NCBI RefSeq assembly: GCF_029626105.1
Contig: NZ_JARUBH010000009.1
Coordinates: forward strand, 1,054,001 to 1,118,000
Origin: Solwaraspora sp. WMMD792
GTDB taxonomy: Bacteria > Actinomycetota > Actinomycetes > Mycobacteriales > Micromonosporaceae
Direction of reading: 5' to 3'
Length of the DNA stretch: 64,000 bases
In this document: piece after piece, positions 39,100-46,653 of the stretch
Position numbering within the stretch: the stretch's first letter is position 1
How the letters are laid out: each line of letters starts with the position of its first letter
Translations under genes and position numbers: made by a program
The notes under the pieces: generated by a model
Seen by the model: only the letters and a program-made list of their open reading frames with translations
Database searches by the model: none
Told to the model about the DNA's origin: nothing

Positions 39100-39504
39100 A
39101 TGGCTGTCGAACCGCTCCCGCCGGGCGCGGGTGACCCCGCGGATCGCCTGCGTCTGATGCTCCCGGAGATCCTGGAGGCGATTCGTGACCCTGGGGCAGC
39201 GTCGCCCGACCTGCTGGCTGAGTTGGAAGCAGCCGTCGTGGGCGAGGCGTCCGGCGCTGGCCGCAGGCTCCGGCTGGTCGGCCGCGCACGCAAGGTGAGT
39301 GTGTCGATGCCGGAAGACTTGACTATCGCCGTGCAGCAGCGGGTGGGCCGGGGGGAGTTCAGCCAGTACGTGACCGAAGCGGTCGCTCGACAGCTTGAGT
39401 TGGATCTCATCGGGGAGCTTTCGGATCTCCTCCGCTCGGAGCACGGACCTGTGCCACCTGACGCGTTGGACGAGGCGAGGGCGTCATGGCCAGACGGGCG
39501 GTAG
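39100..39504 (+). CDS. Antitoxin-like protein of a PIN-domain toxin pair
   Basis: A 134-residue protein. The C-terminal part carries a ribbon-helix-helix-like segment RKVSVSMPEDLTIAVQQRV then GEFSQYVTEAVARQLELDL, typical of VapB/other antitoxins; the N-terminal 60 residues are acidic and helical. It overlaps the PIN gene by 19 bases. It probably binds DNA and the toxin. Confidence 0.7.
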   Translation: MAVEPLPPGAGDPADRLRLMLPEILEAIRDPGAASPDLLAELEAAVVGEASGAGRRLRLVGRARKVSVSMPEDLTIAVQQRVGRGEFSQYVTEAVARQLELDLIGELSDLLRSEHGPVPPDALDEARASWPDGR

Positions 39505-39920
39505 GAACAGGTGGCACGCTGGTACTCGACAGCGAAGGCCTGGTAAAGCTCTCACAGGGCGACAACAAGTCGAGGGCCTTCCTGGAGGCGGCCCGGGAAC
39601 GCGGCGCCAGAGTCGTGGCGAGTGCTGTCACGCTGACGGAGGTCCTTCGAGGTGGGCCGCGTGATGCCCGCCTCCACAGGGTGCTGTCGAGGATCGTGGT
39701 GCAGCCGGTGAGCCCGCAGATCGGCAGGCGGGCAGGTGAACTTCTCGGAGCGACCGGGCTGTCGGGGCACCGTTGTGCCATCGACGCGGTGGTTGCCGTT
39801 ACCGCTCTGGAGATGCCGCGTCCCGTCGTGCTGCTGACCAGCGACCCGGACGACATGAACCGCCTCGTCGAGGAGCTGGACCGGCCGAAGGCGCAGCGGG
39901 TCGTGGTGATGCACGTCTGA
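39486..39920 (+). CDS. PIN-domain toxin (VapC-like)
   Basis: A 144-residue PIN-domain protein with a conserved Asp in TLVLDSEGLVKL, Glu in TLTEVLRGG, Asp in CAIDAVVAVTALE and Asp in LTSDPDDMNRL, the acidic quartet of RNA-cleaving PIN toxins. The ATG at 39486 lies within the antitoxin gene's end, the usual VapBC order. Slightly long for VapC (about 130). Confidence 0.8.
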   Translation: MARRAVGTGGTLVLDSEGLVKLSQGDNKSRAFLEAARERGARVVASAVTLTEVLRGGPRDARLHRVLSRIVVQPVSPQIGRRAGELLGATGLSGHRCAIDAVVAVTALEMPRPVVLLTSDPDDMNRLVEELDRPKAQRVVVMHV

Positions 39921-40023: not shown

Positions 40024-41436
40024 TCACGGTTGCGATGTCGTCCTGGTCAGGTTCGGGCCGGCGACCAGGCAGGCGATACCGCCCAGCACCGCCACCCCGG
40101 CCAGCAGCAGCATCGCCGCGCGGGCCGCCCCGACGGTGACGACCTCGCCGATCTGACTGTGCAGCAGGGTGCCGACGGCTGCGGCGCCCAGCATCGAACC
40201 GATCTGCAACGAGGTGATCAGCACCCCGGACGCGGCGCCGGCCTGCTGCTGTTCGACGTCGGACAACGCGACCACCGCCAGCGGGGTGAACAGGAACGCG
40301 TTGCCGACACCGATGACGCACATCGGGGCGACGAACGCCGTCCACGTCGCACCGTCGCGCATCTCGATCGCCGCCCACGCCATGCCGGCGACGGTGGCCG
40401 CCGCCCCGACCAGCAGCAGGTAGCGGCCCTGGACGCGGTCGGCGAGTCTGCCGGCCACCGGGTCGAGCAGGGTGGAGAACAGCGACGCCGGCACGATCAT
40501 CAGCCCGGCGGCCCACGCGTCGAGGCCGAGCACCTGCTGGAAGTACAGCGACAGCACCAGCACCAGGCCGATGACGGTGCCGGAGGTGGTCAGCGAGAAG
40601 CCGTTCATCAGCGGGAAGTTGCGCCGCCGGAACAGCGCGAACGGCACCAGCGGCTCCCGGTCCTGGCGGCGGCGCTGCTGCGTGAGGAAGGCCACCACGA
40701 ACAGCCCGGACACGCCGAGCGTCGCCCAGATGCCGGCGTTCCAGCCGTACCGTTCGCCCTGACTGATGCCGAACGCCAGGCAGAACAGCGCCGCCGAGGC
40801 CAGCACCACCCCGGGCACGTCGAGCCGGCGGCGGACGCGTTGCGCGACCTCGGGCAGCACGAGCCGGCCGACCACGAGCATCAGCAACCCGAGCGGCAGG
40901 TTCAGCCAGAAGATCCACCGCCAGTCGAGGGTGCTGACCAGCACCCCGCCGGCGGCCGGTCCGCTGATCGCGGCGATCCCGCCGACCGCGCCCCGGATGC
41001 CGAACGCCGTGCCCCGGCGGTCCGGCGGGAAGGCCTCCATCAGCAGGGCGAGGGTCTGCGGGGTGAGCAGCGCCGCGCCGAGACCCTGCACCGCGCGGGC
41101 GGCGATCAGCTGGCCGGGCCCTTGGGCCAGGCCGGCGGCGACACTGGCGGCGGTGAAGACGGCGACCCCGAGCAGGAAGATCCGCCGGCGGCCGTAGAGG
41201 TCACCGAGCCGGCCGGCGGTGATCAGGGCCATCGCCAGCAGGAAGATGTAGGCGCTCAGCGACCACACCACCTGGTCGGCCGACGCGTCGAGGTCGGCCA
41301 TGATGCTGGGTACCGCGACGGCGAGCACCGCCACGTCGAGCTGGGTGAGGAAGTACGCCAACGACAGGACGGCCAGCACCGCCCACGGGTTGCCGCGCAG
41401 TCTCGTCAGCAGCTTCGGCTCGCTCACGGTCGTCAT
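40024..41436 (-). CDS. MFS transporter, DHA2 family (14 helices)
   Basis: A 470-residue exporter of the drug:H+ antiporter-2 family: QLDVAVLAVAVPSIMADL at helix 1, loop motif GRLGDLYGRRRIFLLG, helix-5 motif GPAAGGVLVSTLDWRWIFW and late GAASGVLITSLQIGSMLGAA. It is the last gene of a six-gene minus-strand operon and overlaps the previous gene by four bases, so it likely exports the product or gives self-resistance. Confidence 0.88.
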   Translation of the reverse strand: MTTVSEPKLLTRLRGNPWAVLAVLSLAYFLTQLDVAVLAVAVPSIMADLDASADQVVWSLSAYIFLLAMALITAGRLGDLYGRRRIFLLGVAVFTAASVAAGLAQGPGQLIAARAVQGLGAALLTPQTLALLMEAFPPDRRGTAFGIRGAVGGIAAISGPAAGGVLVSTLDWRWIFWLNLPLGLLMLVVGRLVLPEVAQRVRRRLDVPGVVLASAALFCLAFGISQGERYGWNAGIWATLGVSGLFVVAFLTQQRRRQDREPLVPFALFRRRNFPLMNGFSLTTSGTVIGLVLVLSLYFQQVLGLDAWAAGLMIVPASLFSTLLDPVAGRLADRVQGRYLLLVGAAATVAGMAWAAIEMRDGATWTAFVAPMCVIGVGNAFLFTPLAVVALSDVEQQQAGAASGVLITSLQIGSMLGAAAVGTLLHSQIGEVVTVGAARAAMLLLAGVAVLGGIACLVAGPNLTRTTSQP

Positions 41437-42593
41437 CCGGTCGGCTCCAGCCAGATCATCGGGGGGATCTTGTTGGTGCGGTCCACCCGGCGCAGCCGCG
41501 GCACCTGTTCGACGGCGACCGCCGTCGGGTGGTGCTGGGCGACGACGCCCAGGTCGTAGAACTGGTGCAGCAGCCGGGTGCGTACCGCCGCCGGGTCGGC
41601 GTCCCCGGTGTAGTGCACGGTCACCGCGCTGACCGAGTGGCGCTCGCCGGCGGCCCGCCGCAGCAGCAGCTGTGCGTCGCGTACTCCTGGTGCGGCGCGG
41701 ACGATGTCCAGCACCGTACCGATGCCGACCAGCGCGCCGTGCAGCTTGATCGCGTCGTCGGCGCGGCCCAGCACCCGCAGCGCGTCCGGTCGGCCGCAGC
41801 CGCAGGCCGCCGCCGCGACCCGGTCGCCGAGCCGGTACCGCACGGTCGGCACGGTCCAGCCGTCACCCACTCTGGACAGCAGGGCGCCGGCGTCGTCGGG
41901 CTCGAGCACCTGGTCGGGCATCAGGTGCAGCACCGAGGTGTCGCACGCCGGGGTGTTCGTGGCGATGACGTACGTTTCGACCGAACCGTAGTTGCCCCAG
42001 AGCTGGACCTGCGGGAACGCCTTCCGCACGATGGTCGCCTTCTCCTCGGTCCACGGCTCGGCCATCCAGATGATCTTTTCGATCGGGGTGGCCGCGCCCG
42101 CGTCGAGTACGCCCCGGGCCAGGTCGGCCAGGGCCGTCGGGGTGCCGGCGACCGCGTTGACGCCGAGCCGACTCAGGGTCGGCAGCCAGCCGTCGACCTC
42201 CTCCGGGGTGATCGGACCGAACGGTGCCACGTCGGCACCGCAGCGTCCGGCCAGCTCCTGCATGTAGTAGTGCGACGCCCACAGCCGGCCGGGGGTGAAC
42301 AGGTTGAGCAGCAGGTCACCGCCGACCAGCGGTCGCCACTGCCGCAGCAGCCGGTCGATGGCCTGGTGGTACGCCACGTAGGTGAGCTTGGGCTGCCCGG
42401 TGGTGCCGCCGCTGGACAGCAGCAGCGCACCGGTCCGCCGGGTCACCGCGTGCGATACGGCGAAGATCTCGTCCGGTCCGGTGACCGGCAGGTCGGCGAG
42501 TCCGGTGGCGGTGTCCGGCACGGCCGGGGCACCGGCGGCGGCGTTGCGTCGGGCCTGGTCGCGCAGCGCGTCCCAGGGCACCGCGCCGATCAT
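41433..42593 (-). CDS. PaaK-like adenylate-forming enzyme
   Basis: A 386-residue member of the phenylacetate-CoA ligase/CoF synthetase group: P-loop LLLSSGGTTGQPKLTYVAY, NYGSVETYV, and the hinge YRLGDRVAAAACGCG with GRADDAIKLHGAL. The C-terminal part ends with DRTNKIPPMIW (Lys for adenylation). Activates a carboxylic acid with ATP; the acceptor may be CoA or an amine. It overlaps both neighbours in the operon by four bases. Confidence 0.78.
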   Translation of the reverse strand: MIGAVPWDALRDQARRNAAAGAPAVPDTATGLADLPVTGPDEIFAVSHAVTRRTGALLLSSGGTTGQPKLTYVAYHQAIDRLLRQWRPLVGGDLLLNLFTPGRLWASHYYMQELAGRCGADVAPFGPITPEEVDGWLPTLSRLGVNAVAGTPTALADLARGVLDAGAATPIEKIIWMAEPWTEEKATIVRKAFPQVQLWGNYGSVETYVIATNTPACDTSVLHLMPDQVLEPDDAGALLSRVGDGWTVPTVRYRLGDRVAAAACGCGRPDALRVLGRADDAIKLHGALVGIGTVLDIVRAAPGVRDAQLLLRRAAGERHSVSAVTVHYTGDADPAAVRTRLLHQFYDLGVVAQHHPTAVAVEQVPRLRRVDRTNKIPPMIWLEPTG

Positions 42594-43615
42594 CCCGGCC
42601 GCCGACGCGACTGGTCGTCACCGGCGGCGTGCCACCGGGCGAATCCGGCCAGGTACGCCTCGAACCGGGCCCGCACGATCGCCCGGGCGGCGGCGTCCTG
42701 CTCGGGAATGCCGTTGAACGCGACCGCGCCGTCGAGTTCGATCTCCGACACCCAGTGCCGCTCGCCGTCGAAGAGGAAGTCCAGAGTGAAGTACGGCGTG
42801 GGCAGCCGTTCGGCGACGTAGGCGACGGTGTCGGCGAGCTCCGGCGGCAGAGCGGAGTAGCCGCGTTCGTGCCGGCCGCCGCTGGCCTTGGTCACGGCCA
42901 GGCAGTAGCCGTCCTTGTAGCCGTACAGCACGGTGTGTGCCTGCCCGTCGACGACATACACCCGCTGTTCGCGTACCACCTTGAGGTAGGGCTGGGCGAC
43001 CAGCGCGGTGTCCGAGCCACCGGCGAGTCCGATGAGACCTTTCAGGTCGTTCATGTTGTGTACCACCGAGATGCCCAGGCCCATGCCCCAGTAGGCGGGT
43101 TTGACGATCAACGGGAACGGCAGCGCGGCGAGCGCGGCGTCGCTGTGACCGGCCATCGCCTCCCGGCCGCTGCCCACCCGGATCGTCGGCAGCAGCGGGA
43201 TCGGACTGCCAGCCAGGTGCACCACGCTGGCCAGCTTGTCCTCGCCGATGTAGGACAGTGCCGGTGGGATCGGCAGGTAGAAGCCGAGCCGTTCCAGGAT
43301 GGTGAACAGGAACACCTGGTTGCACACGTCCTGGGTCTGGTGCGGCAGGGAGTACAGCGAGGTGACGAAGATGGTGTCGGTCGGGGTGACCGGCTCACCG
43401 TTGAGCCAGACTTTGGGCTGGCCCGGGTCGGTCGCGTCGACCGCGACCTCCTCGGGCTTGTTCACCGTGAACTCCAGGCCCAGGTCGGCGGCGATCTCCT
43501 GGTACGGCCCCCAGACCGCCTCCTGCTCGGCCTGCCGTACCCAGGCGGTGCCCCGGTCGGGGTAGATCCAGCTGAGGCGCCGCGCCGTACTGGGCGCGGC
43601 CGTGCGATCGGTCAA
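42590..43615 (-). CDS. ATP-grasp family ligase
   Basis: A 341-residue ATP-grasp protein: ATP-binding Lys in PFPLIVKPAYWGMGLGIS, VREQRVYVVDGQAHTVLYGY, and the metal/phosphate end FTLDFLFDGERHWVSEIELD with AFNG. Such ligases join a carboxylate to an amine through an acyl-phosphate. The N-terminal third (NQVFLFTILERLGFYLPIPP) is not one I recognise, so the substrates are unknown. Starts 73 bases after the hydrolase stop in the same operon. Confidence 0.75.
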   Translation of the reverse strand: MTDRTAAPSTARRLSWIYPDRGTAWVRQAEQEAVWGPYQEIAADLGLEFTVNKPEEVAVDATDPGQPKVWLNGEPVTPTDTIFVTSLYSLPHQTQDVCNQVFLFTILERLGFYLPIPPALSYIGEDKLASVVHLAGSPIPLLPTIRVGSGREAMAGHSDAALAALPFPLIVKPAYWGMGLGISVVHNMNDLKGLIGLAGGSDTALVAQPYLKVVREQRVYVVDGQAHTVLYGYKDGYCLAVTKASGGRHERGYSALPPELADTVAYVAERLPTPYFTLDFLFDGERHWVSEIELDGAVAFNGIPEQDAAARAIVRARFEAYLAGFARWHAAGDDQSRRRPG

Positions 43616-43688
43616 TGCCCTCTCCCTTGCGGTGTGGTGCGGGTCCTCGGCCGGTGGGTCCGCGTCGGCGGGGTCCCGGGCGGGTGGC

Positions 43689-44513
43689 TCAGGTGGCCAC
43701 CGGGTGGTCGACGAAGGTCGACACGAGTTCCGCGAACCGGTCAGGTTCCTCGACGAACGGCAGATGGCCGCTGCCGGTGAACACCTCCAGCCGGGACGCC
43801 GGTATCGCCGAGCGCAGCCACCCGCCGACGTCGCCGGGGTAGACCTGGCTGTGCGCTCCGTGGACGAGCAGTGTCGGTACGCTGATCCGGCGCAGCCGGT
43901 CGCGCCAGTCCACGGTGAGCGCCTCGGCGAGCAGTGCCCGTACGGCGTCCGGATCGCACCGGCGGGTCTCGTCGATGAGGCCGGCCAGCGTCGTCGGGTC
44001 GGCGTCGGTGCCGGCGGCGAACGAGCCGCGGACCAGCCCGGCGGCGAAGGTGGGGTAGTCGTCGGTCACGCTGGCCAGGACGGCGTCGGCCCCGGCGGCG
44101 TCGAGGTTGCCGAAGGCCGCGTACGGCCAGTCGTCGTCGCGCAGCAGCCGTGGGGTCTGCTCGACCGACACCAGGGCCCGGGTCCGGGCAGCCCCGAACT
44201 GCTCCAGGTAGCCGTAGGCCACGGTCGCGCCGAGCGACCAGCCCAGCAGGGTGACGTCGGTCAGGTCGAGCTTCTCGATGGTGGTGTGCAGATCCTCGGC
44301 GGCGCGGGTGAGGCTGGCCGGACGGTCGGCGGTGGCGTTGTCGCCGTGTCCGGGCAGTTCGACGACGACCACCCGGTGCCGGTTGGCGAGCCGGGCCACC
44401 GCCTCGGAGAAGAACGCGGCGGTGGCGGCCAGCCCGGGCACCATGACCAGGGCCGGTCCGTGACCGCGCGTGGCCAGGGCCGGTCCGTGACCGTGGTCCG
44501 GGTGCCGGGTCAT
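43689..44513 (-). CDS. Alpha/beta hydrolase (possible thioesterase) in the small cluster
   Basis: A 274-residue hydrolase: MVPGLAATAAFF, ELPGHGDN, nucleophile elbow LLGWSLGATVAYGYLE, acid HGAHSQVYPGD-like region and catalytic His in GSGHLPFVEE. Resembles hydrolases that release or trim small metabolites. Its ATG overlaps the previous stop (ATGA). The N-terminus contains a 20-bp tandem duplication giving a repeated GHGPAL. Confidence 0.82.
   Translation of the reverse strand: MTRHPDHGHGPALATRGHGPALVMVPGLAATAAFFSEAVARLANRHRVVVVELPGHGDNATADRPASLTRAAEDLHTTIEKLDLTDVTLLGWSLGATVAYGYLEQFGAARTRALVSVEQTPRLLRDDDWPYAAFGNLDAAGADAVLASVTDDYPTFAAGLVRGSFAAGTDADPTTLAGLIDETRRCDPDAVRALLAEALTVDWRDRLRRISVPTLLVHGAHSQVYPGDVGGWLRSAIPASRLEVFTGSGHLPFVEEPDRFAELVSTFVDHPVAT
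44447..44493 (-). repeat. 20-bp tandem repeat in the hydrolase N-terminus
   Basis: CCAGGGCCGGTCCGTGACCG occurs at 44447-44466 and 44474-44493 (period 27), in frame, encoding the doubled GHGPAL. Confidence 0.85.
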
Positions 44514-45988
44514 TGGCTGCCCCCGGCCAGCCCGAGTCGCGTGCGCAGCAACGGTTTGTCGATCTTGCCGACCGGGGTACGGGGCATCGCGGCGACGAGG
44601 TGCACCGAACCGGTCAGCCCGTGCCGGGCGAGCAGTTCCTCGACGGCCTTGACGGCCTCGTCGTCGGAGTGCCCGTCTGCCGGGGCGACGGCCACGGCGA
44701 CCACGTCGCGGTAGTCGCCGGGGTGCACGGCCAGACTGACGGCCTGTACCACTGCCTCGGCCGCGCCGAGTTCGGTGTCGAGCACTGGCGCCGGCAGCGG
44801 CCCGGCGGGGGTGGCCAGCGTCTCGGACACCCGGCCCAGGATTCGGTAGCCGCCCTGTGCGTTGCGTTCGGCGACGTCCCCGGTCCAGAACTCGGGCCGG
44901 CGGAAGGTACGGGCGTTGGCTTGCGGCGCGTCGACGTACCCCTCGCTGGTGCAGTCCGAGTAGAGGACCAGCTCCCCGACGTCGGGGTGGCCGGGCACGA
45001 AGGGTTCCAGCCGGGTGCCGACCCCACGGACCGGGACCATGGCGGTGTCGGTCTGCGGTACGTCGTCCATGTTGCCCAGCGCCAGGCCGAACTCGGTCGA
45101 GCCGTAGATCTGCCGGATGTGTACGCCGAGCACGTCGGCGGCGTCCCGGACGATCGCCGGGCTGAGATAGGCGCCACCGCACAGGGGGCGGCGCAGCGCC
45201 GGCAGCGGGAACCGGCCCTGGCGCCGGGCGGCGGCGACCAGGTCGGCGTAGTGCTGCGGCAGGGCGCTGGTCACGGTCGCCTGGTGGGCGGCCAGTTGGG
45301 TCAGCAGTGTGCCGGCCGGCGCGTGCGGGTCGGCGAGCACCAGTTGCGCGCCGGACAGCAGCGCCGCGAACACGTGCAGGTCGGTGGCGTGCGCCACGTC
45401 GAGGGTGTGGCGGCAGAAGAAGATGTCGTCGGGGCGGATCCCGGTGTCGGCCAGCCAGCGGCGTCGTTCGGTGACGAAGCGGTCCTGCCGCCAGGCCATC
45501 ATCTTCGGGAAGCCGGTCGAGCCGGAGGTCCATAGTAGCCGGAATATGGCGGTGGCCGTCGAGGCGGTGGAGTCCGCGGTGGGCTCCGGCCGGGGCGTCG
45601 AGGCGGTCAGCTTGTCGAGGTCGACAGCGGCCGGGCCGTCGGCGGGGATCCGGCGGTGCCCGTCGGTGACCAGCAGGGCGGGGCGTGCCCGGTCGAGAGC
45701 GGTCCGCACCCCGGCGTCGTCGAAGTTCGCCATCAGCGGTACGTAGCGGGCACCGAGCCGGGCCACCGCCAGGATCAGGCAGACGTACCCGATGCTGTTG
45801 CGCAGCACCACGGCGACGGTGTCGCCAGCCGCGACGCCGTGCGCGGGGAGGCCGGCGGCGACCCGGTCGGTCGTCTCGACGAGTTCGCGGTACGTCACGG
45901 ACGCACCGTCGGTGGTGCGTACCGCCACGGCGTCGGGTCGACGGCCGGCCACCTCGCGGACGGCCTGGTAGAGCCCGGCAGCGGTCAC
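44510..45988 (-). CDS. AMP-binding adenylate-forming enzyme (ANL family)
   Basis: A 492-residue ANL enzyme: core TSGSTGFPKMMAW, QIYGSTEFGLAL, EFWTGDVAERNAQGGYRILG, and the C-terminal catalytic Lys in RTPVGKIDKPLLR. It activates a carboxylic or amino acid as AMP ester; the substrate is not predictable. The GTG start at 45988 overlaps the methyltransferase stop. With a second activating enzyme, an ATP-grasp ligase and no carrier protein, it could start an amide- or peptide-forming route. Confidence 0.85.
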   Translation of the reverse strand: MTAAGLYQAVREVAGRRPDAVAVRTTDGASVTYRELVETTDRVAAGLPAHGVAAGDTVAVVLRNSIGYVCLILAVARLGARYVPLMANFDDAGVRTALDRARPALLVTDGHRRIPADGPAAVDLDKLTASTPRPEPTADSTASTATAIFRLLWTSGSTGFPKMMAWRQDRFVTERRRWLADTGIRPDDIFFCRHTLDVAHATDLHVFAALLSGAQLVLADPHAPAGTLLTQLAAHQATVTSALPQHYADLVAAARRQGRFPLPALRRPLCGGAYLSPAIVRDAADVLGVHIRQIYGSTEFGLALGNMDDVPQTDTAMVPVRGVGTRLEPFVPGHPDVGELVLYSDCTSEGYVDAPQANARTFRRPEFWTGDVAERNAQGGYRILGRVSETLATPAGPLPAPVLDTELGAAEAVVQAVSLAVHPGDYRDVVAVAVAPADGHSDDEAVKAVEELLARHGLTGSVHLVAAMPRTPVGKIDKPLLRTRLGLAGGSQ

Positions 45989-46653
45989 GACGCCAGCCAC
46001 CCGGCGTAGGTGGCGAATCGCCAGTCCTTGGCCAGGCAGTCCACGGTGTCGAAGCCGGCGGCGCGGAGCCAGCCGAGTTGAGTTTCGACGTCGATGCAGA
46101 TGTCGTGCTTCATCCGTTCGCGGCCGGCCGCCCATTCGTCGGCAGGCGTTCCGGCGGCGTGTACGTGGCCTTCGTGCTGCCGGTCGTACATCTCCTCCAG
46201 TCGCGGTGTGGGCGCGAGGACCTGCTCGACGTTGACGAAGATCCCACCCGGCCGCAGAATGTCGGGTAGGCGACCAAACAGCGTTTGTTTCTCGTGATGC
46301 TCGAGGTGGTGGATAGCTAGGCCGGAAACAACTGCGTCGTACGGCCCCGCCGGCAATGGATCCATCAGTCCCTGAACAGCGAAACTGACCCGATGGACAC
46401 TGTCGAACCGTTGTTTGGCCTGTGCGAGCATCCGTTCGGAATGGTCGACGAGAGTGATCGTTGCTTCGGGGATGCGGGCGATCAGCGCTGCGCTGAGCAG
46501 CCCGGTCCCCGCGCCCAGATCCAGGATCCGTGCGTCGCCCGGCACCGACATCTGCACCGCGCTGGACGCGCTGCCGTACAACAGGTCGAACGACGGGATG
46601 AGTTGACGCCGCAGTGCATCGTAGGTAGTGGGATTCCACAGCTCGAAGGTCAC
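45985..46653 (-). CDS. SAM-dependent methyltransferase, first gene of the small cluster
   Basis: A 222-residue class I methyltransferase: motif I RILDLGAGTGLLSAALI, acidic VDHSERMLAQ, YDAVVSGLAIHHLEHHE and IFVNVEQVLAPTP. I chose the GTG at 46653 (VTFELWNPTTYDALRRQ) with GGGGGG upstream; the frame is open to 46785. Methyltransferases of this type act on small molecules or tRNA. It begins the six-gene operon, with a 267-base region upstream. Confidence 0.82.
   Translation of the reverse strand: MTFELWNPTTYDALRRQLIPSFDLLYGSASSAVQMSVPGDARILDLGAGTGLLSAALIARIPEATITLVDHSERMLAQAKQRFDSVHRVSFAVQGLMDPLPAGPYDAVVSGLAIHHLEHHEKQTLFGRLPDILRPGGIFVNVEQVLAPTPRLEEMYDRQHEGHVHAAGTPADEWAAGRERMKHDICIDVETQLGWLRAAGFDTVDCLAKDWRFATYAGWLAS

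Follow-up and report, generated by a model that had tools for sequence, protein, structure and literature searches.

A six-gene actinobacterial cassette with the predicted enzymes of a cystargolide-type beta-lactone dipeptide pathway

Cystargolide and belactosin are small two-amino-acid compounds that carry a reactive beta-lactone ring and block the proteasome. The cystargolide pathway, CysGFECD, has been rebuilt in vitro and the order of its reactions established (Xu et al., 2024; PMC11427300). In this route, CysG methylates 3-isopropylmalate at C1, after which CysF carries out an ATP-driven beta-lactonization, CysE hydrolyzes the methyl ester, CysC couples L-valine, and CysD then adds a second L-valine (PMC11427300). 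The methyl ester is transient, being stripped off by the hydrolase, CysF closes the beta-lactone and makes no amide, and both CysC and CysD are permissive (PMC11427300). The lactone can be trapped by HEPES buffer (PMC11427300). The mechanism of CysG has been described, including its metal motif, gate and pocket residues, and a homologue of isopropylmalate synthase has been described in both the cys and the bel clusters (PMC11408123). This dedicated synthase supplies the precursor, and stands outside the five reconstituted assembly enzymes.

The stretch of DNA analyzed here (the window, 64 kb) corresponds to C9:1054001-1118000 of a 7.4-Mb, high-GC genome. At positions 40024-46653 it contains six minus-strand genes in the order G-F-E-D-C-exporter, running from 46653 to 40024. 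The initial annotation had described six genes on one strand, encoding a methyltransferase, an ANL enzyme, an alpha/beta hydrolase, an ATP-grasp ligase, a PaaK-like adenylating enzyme and a DHA2 exporter, mostly with 4-base overlaps. These families were confirmed by Pfam, by predicted fold for the two ligases and by TIGR00711 for the exporter, and we found such overlaps at four of the five junctions (GTGA at G/F; ATGA at F/E, D/C and C/exporter), the fifth, between the hydrolase and the ATP-grasp gene, being a 73-base gap. As the annotation had also stated, none of the six genes encodes a carrier protein, a condensation domain or a ketosynthase, and its proposal of a stepwise, carrier-free assembly of a small amide or peptide by stand-alone ATP-driven enzymes, followed by export, is supported by our analysis. 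Its remark that it recognized no described pathway of such a composition did not survive: the locus shows enzyme-for-enzyme homology to CysG-F-E-D-C (PMC11427300, PMC11408123), and cystargolide biosynthesis is thus the kind of characterized match that the annotation itself had set against its reading. We consider it very probable that the six genes together direct the biosynthesis of a beta-lactone dipeptide by a cystargolide-type route.

The assignment is firmest for the first two genes. G (45985..46653, minus strand; 222 aa, GTG start) is a class I SAM methyltransferase by Pfam, and its PDB matches point to a SAM-dependent carboxyl O-methyltransferase of the CysG/BelI type. In a phmmer search against all PDB chains, G matched CysG best (9fcd, E 4e-99, 72% identity) and BelI second (9fce, E 2.5e-89, 64% identity), with the next chain outside CysG/BelI at 4e-41. 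Alignment showed that the His122-His123-Asp191 metal motif of CysG is conserved in G, as are the equivalents of the Tyr18 gate, Arg22, His167 and Arg187, and that the residues of the apolar pocket (Ile26/Leu119/Phe220) are identical in the two proteins. Asp102 of CysG, which contacts the adenine, is replaced by Gly in the window G and in its three congeners. The predicted reaction of G is methylation of a 3-alkylmalate, for example 3-isopropylmalate, at C1.

F (44510..45988, minus strand; 492 aa, GTG start) has an AMP-binding domain (Pfam) and, as its best PDB match, CysF (8ra0, E 3e-177, 61% identity over about 480 aa); the next PDB structure after CysF came at only 4e-25. All 16 aligned F homologues, the window protein included, have His192, which has been proposed as the general base for closing the lactone. 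F is therefore a predicted adenylate-forming beta-lactone synthetase of the CysF/BelH type. The initial annotation had counted three ATP-driven acyl-activating enzymes in the locus; all three are present, but the CysF-type homologue among them would close a beta-lactone and not form an amide.

The gene that follows F, at a fixed position in the conserved loci, is E (43689..44513, minus strand; 274 aa), an alpha/beta hydrolase (Abhydrolase_6/1) with the nucleophile elbow GWSLG and a terminal GHLPF His. Its closest NCBIfam model is the BioH methyl-ester esterase, with a score below the model cut-off, and it shares 47-49% identity with the hydrolases at cys-type loci. E thus appears to be a hydrolase of the CysE/BelR type, a predicted methyl-esterase that would free the beta-lactone acid. 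These three proteins bear directly on the possibility that a methylated amide or peptide is made by a novel pathway without carrier proteins, with amide formation by both adenylating enzymes. The parts for such a pathway are there, namely two AMP-binding enzymes together with an ATP-grasp enzyme and a methyltransferase. We nevertheless regard it as extremely improbable: orthology ties the first ANL enzyme to CysF, with the base conserved, and the methyltransferase to CysG, which in the known route makes a transient ester (PMC11427300), and the gene directly downstream encodes a hydrolase of the methyl-esterase type. The methylated product that had been suggested is likewise probably wrong, because the methyl is a transient protecting group that the hydrolase removes in the known route.

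The cystargolide-type reading may extend to the two ligases, for which we found only weak sequence matches to solved structures. D (42590..43615, minus strand; 341 aa, TTG start) contains a D-Ala-D-Ala-ligase C-terminal domain (Dala_Dala_lig_C, 25.8 bits vs a Pfam cut-off of 24); its AlphaFold model (pLDDT 82) matches RimK/LysX at a Foldseek E of 2e-15, and the protein shares 53-54% identity with its counterparts in the cys-type loci L029 and L031. C (41433..42593, minus strand; 386 aa, AMP-binding) gave an AlphaFold model (pLDDT 81) that matches PaaK1 and PaaK-family AMP ligases at E 3e-18, is 57-58% identical to C of the cys-type loci, and has an orthologue in every cys- and bel-type locus. 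On these grounds, C may be a PaaK-like amide synthetase of the CysC type, which would attach the first amino acid to the beta-lactone acid, and D an ATP-grasp ligase of the CysD type, which would add the second. For C, D and E, the assignments are based on fold and synteny and on identity to L029 and L031, which serve as proxies for the cys cluster and have G and F proteins 77-84% identical to CysG and CysF. The sixth gene (40024..41436, minus strand; 470 aa) encodes a DHA2-family MFS exporter that matches TIGR00711 (efflux_EmrB) at 267 bits vs a cut-off of 230 and is co-conserved with the five enzymes; its predicted role is product efflux or self-protection. We also looked for a duplicated proteasome subunit that could confer self-resistance, but PF00227 (Pfam) matched at one place in the genome, at 2.14 Mb, and nowhere in the window.

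With respect to precursor supply, a tblastn search with the two synthases of the same genome as queries found no isopropylmalate synthase in the 64-kb window at E 1e-3. The host does have LeuA (L009, C9:5.27 Mb) and a LeuC at 734 bits vs a cut-off of 560, and we therefore infer that 3-isopropylmalate should come from primary metabolism. Among the loci compared, an isopropylmalate synthase lies close by in L029, L043, L044 and L047, and L024, L030 and L031 have none within the flanks read. Because it has no linked synthase, we class the window locus, on the strength of its five assembly enzymes, as cystargolide-like and not as a complete cys cluster.

The second synthase-like gene of the genome (C9:4.80 Mb, L075) was considered as the missing partner. 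This is unlikely, because the gene sits in another, unrelated gene cluster and is absent from eight relatives at E 1e-60, of which five carry the cassette. The region around it (C9:4792001-4812000) holds the 407-aa isopropylmalate-synthase-like gene and a LeuC-like match, together with ORFs that by eye resemble a luciferase, a CoA-transferase, an asparagine synthetase and a Lys/Orn N-monooxygenase, and probably represents a further biosynthetic cluster, one in which a precursor of the alkylmalate type is extended.

The six genes are conserved together, a point that the initial annotation had proposed as a check. The G-F-E-D-C-exporter order is found in three congeners (L021-L023), in another genus of the family (L024), in Streptomyces filipinensis (L029), S. 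apocyni (L030) and Streptomyces sp. NBRC 110611 (L031), in Terrilactibacillus sp. S3-3 (L032), and in further genomes (L043, L048, L072). To find all six with an unchanged order in so many genomes is far beyond chance. The spread is patchy, with an F homologue at E 1e-80 in 11 of 355 genomes of the family; six of these 11 F homologues are distant, and among them L072 forms a full cluster, unlike L073 and L074. A scan of genome contigs with the ANL enzyme alone returned no loci, and with an alignment that included CysF it returned six, four of them full clusters. No CysF match near 100% identity, such as the Kitasatospora cystarginea cluster itself would give, turned up in 395 genomes, and nothing relevant on a Micromonospora cystargolide cluster was found in the literature.

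Phylogenetic trees placed the window together with L021-L023 in a separate clade, to which L024 also belongs in the trees of F, C and D. L029 and L031 cluster with CysG and CysF, and L044 and L047, with a G 92-94% identical to BelI, fall with BelI. In the bel-type loci L044 and L047 the gene order is rearranged, an isopropylmalate synthase lies adjacent, and the ATP-grasp enzyme is a different one that at E 1e-5 gave no match to D; in addition, L044 contains a gene for a Haem_oxygenas_2 protein and L047, by eye, a LeuC-like ORF. None of these features is present in the six genes of the window, which makes it very unlikely that the locus is belactosin-type, i.e., that it joins a 3-sec-butylmalate-derived lactone to an ornithine-type side-chain amine and then to alanine, even though BelI is 64% identical to the window G and the specificity-pocket residues of CysG and BelI are alike, so that sec-butylmalate is still allowed.

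Some loci depart from the common layout. In L046 (G362) the cluster is split into two blocks, E-D-C-exporter and then G-F, with a different short synthase directly after F that is 44% identical to the second synthase of our genome; L046 is a possible variant with another warhead precursor. L073, L074 and L049 encode CysF-like enzymes, 44-46% identical to the window F, without G, E, C or D. The neighbors in L073 are an ArgJ-family protein, a DAP-epimerase-like protein and, by eye, an amidinotransferase-like ORF; those in L074 are a TauD-type dioxygenase and, by eye, an ArgH-like ORF. This looks like a different pathway employing a CysF-like enzyme.

Comparison of genomic sites speaks to the mobility of the cassette. 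In congener G002 (L069), the flanking UvrD-like helicase, PIN-domain gene pair and methyltransferase stand in the same order, and the distance from the PIN gene to this methyltransferase gene is about 46 bases, as compared with 7.0 kb and exactly six genes in the window. In congener G001 the cassette is missing from the equivalent site (L071), and the six genes are found elsewhere on the chromosome with different neighbors (L023). The empty G002 site and the other location in G001 thus indicate a discrete unit that is gained or lost as a whole. The two-gene unit with the PIN-domain protein (window 39100-39920; toxin-antitoxin-like) borders the cassette and is retained at the empty G002 site. 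At L023 the cassette adjoins very long ORFs, up to 1874 aa, which may belong to an NRPS-type gene cluster.

From homology, catalytic residues, gene order and presence or absence of genes we infer reactions in this organism, substrates, a product and a target. The CysGFECD reaction order is the best explanation here, given the orthology of G and F and, for E, D and C, their fold and synteny. LeuA and LeuCD of the host's leucine pathway would supply (2R,3S)-3-isopropylmalate or a near homologue, whose C1 carboxylate the CysG-type methyltransferase would mask as a methyl ester. The CysF-type ANL enzyme would then adenylate C4, attack by the C2 hydroxyl would close the beta-lactone, and the CysE-type hydrolase would take off the methyl. 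The CysC-type ligase would condense the lactone acid with one amino acid, the CysD-type ligase would add another, and the DHA2 pump would export the product, predicted by analogy with cystargolide and belactosin to inhibit covalently the catalytic threonine of the proteasome, or ClpP. The lack of a synthase in the window, the limited identity of D, and the Asp102 to Gly change count against this reading.

With only 53-54% identity between D and its cys-type counterparts, the amino acids installed may differ from those of cystargolide. Whether the product of this cystargolide-type pathway is unlike the known cystargolides, for instance through a change of one or both amino acids or of the 3-alkylmalate, is in our judgment evenly balanced, this estimate concerning the product and being compatible with the pathway type. 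The separate clade, the divergence of C as well as D, and the unlinked substrate-supplying synthase speak for a different product, while no sequence feature that we found positively indicates another substrate and CysC and CysD are themselves permissive (PMC11427300). We tentatively suggest, as a possibility that falls just short of an even chance, a third branch of the family, in which a beta-lactone dipeptide of new composition is made from a precursor of primary leucine biosynthesis by a self-contained six-gene cassette that spreads. The analysis ties an unannotated actinobacterial locus to the pharmacologically relevant beta-lactones that inhibit the proteasome and ClpP, and provides a divergent set of five assembly enzymes for the enzymatic cascade approach shown with CysGFECD, with ligases that may accept other amino acids. 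The absence of a synthase predicts that the five enzymes and 3-isopropylmalate from leucine metabolism would be enough.

In summary, the locus resembles the cys cluster of Kitasatospora cystarginea (CysG-F-E-C-D) in its G and F, 72 and 61% identical with catalytic residues kept, and in having a hydrolase, a PaaK-like ligase, an ATP-grasp ligase and an exporter and no NRPS or PKS. It differs from that cluster in having no linked isopropylmalate synthase and in its own phylogenetic clade, and from the cys-type proxy loci in its divergent D. With the bel cluster (BelI-H-R-V-U) it shares the warhead logic and the 64% identity of G to BelI, but it differs from the bel-type loci L044 and L047 in the absence of a synthase, in the family of its ATP-grasp enzyme (their ATP-grasp_4 enzyme is absent from the six genes) and in gene order, and from L044 in having no haem-oxygenase-like gene among the six. 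The same F and E activities would be expected as in the CysFE fusion clusters (BhCysFE), although in the window F and E are separate genes with a 4-base overlap. The type of pathway is thus a known one, and the novelty is modest, consisting of a third clade next to the cys and bel types, the lack of a dedicated synthase at this locus, and its organization as a discrete cassette.
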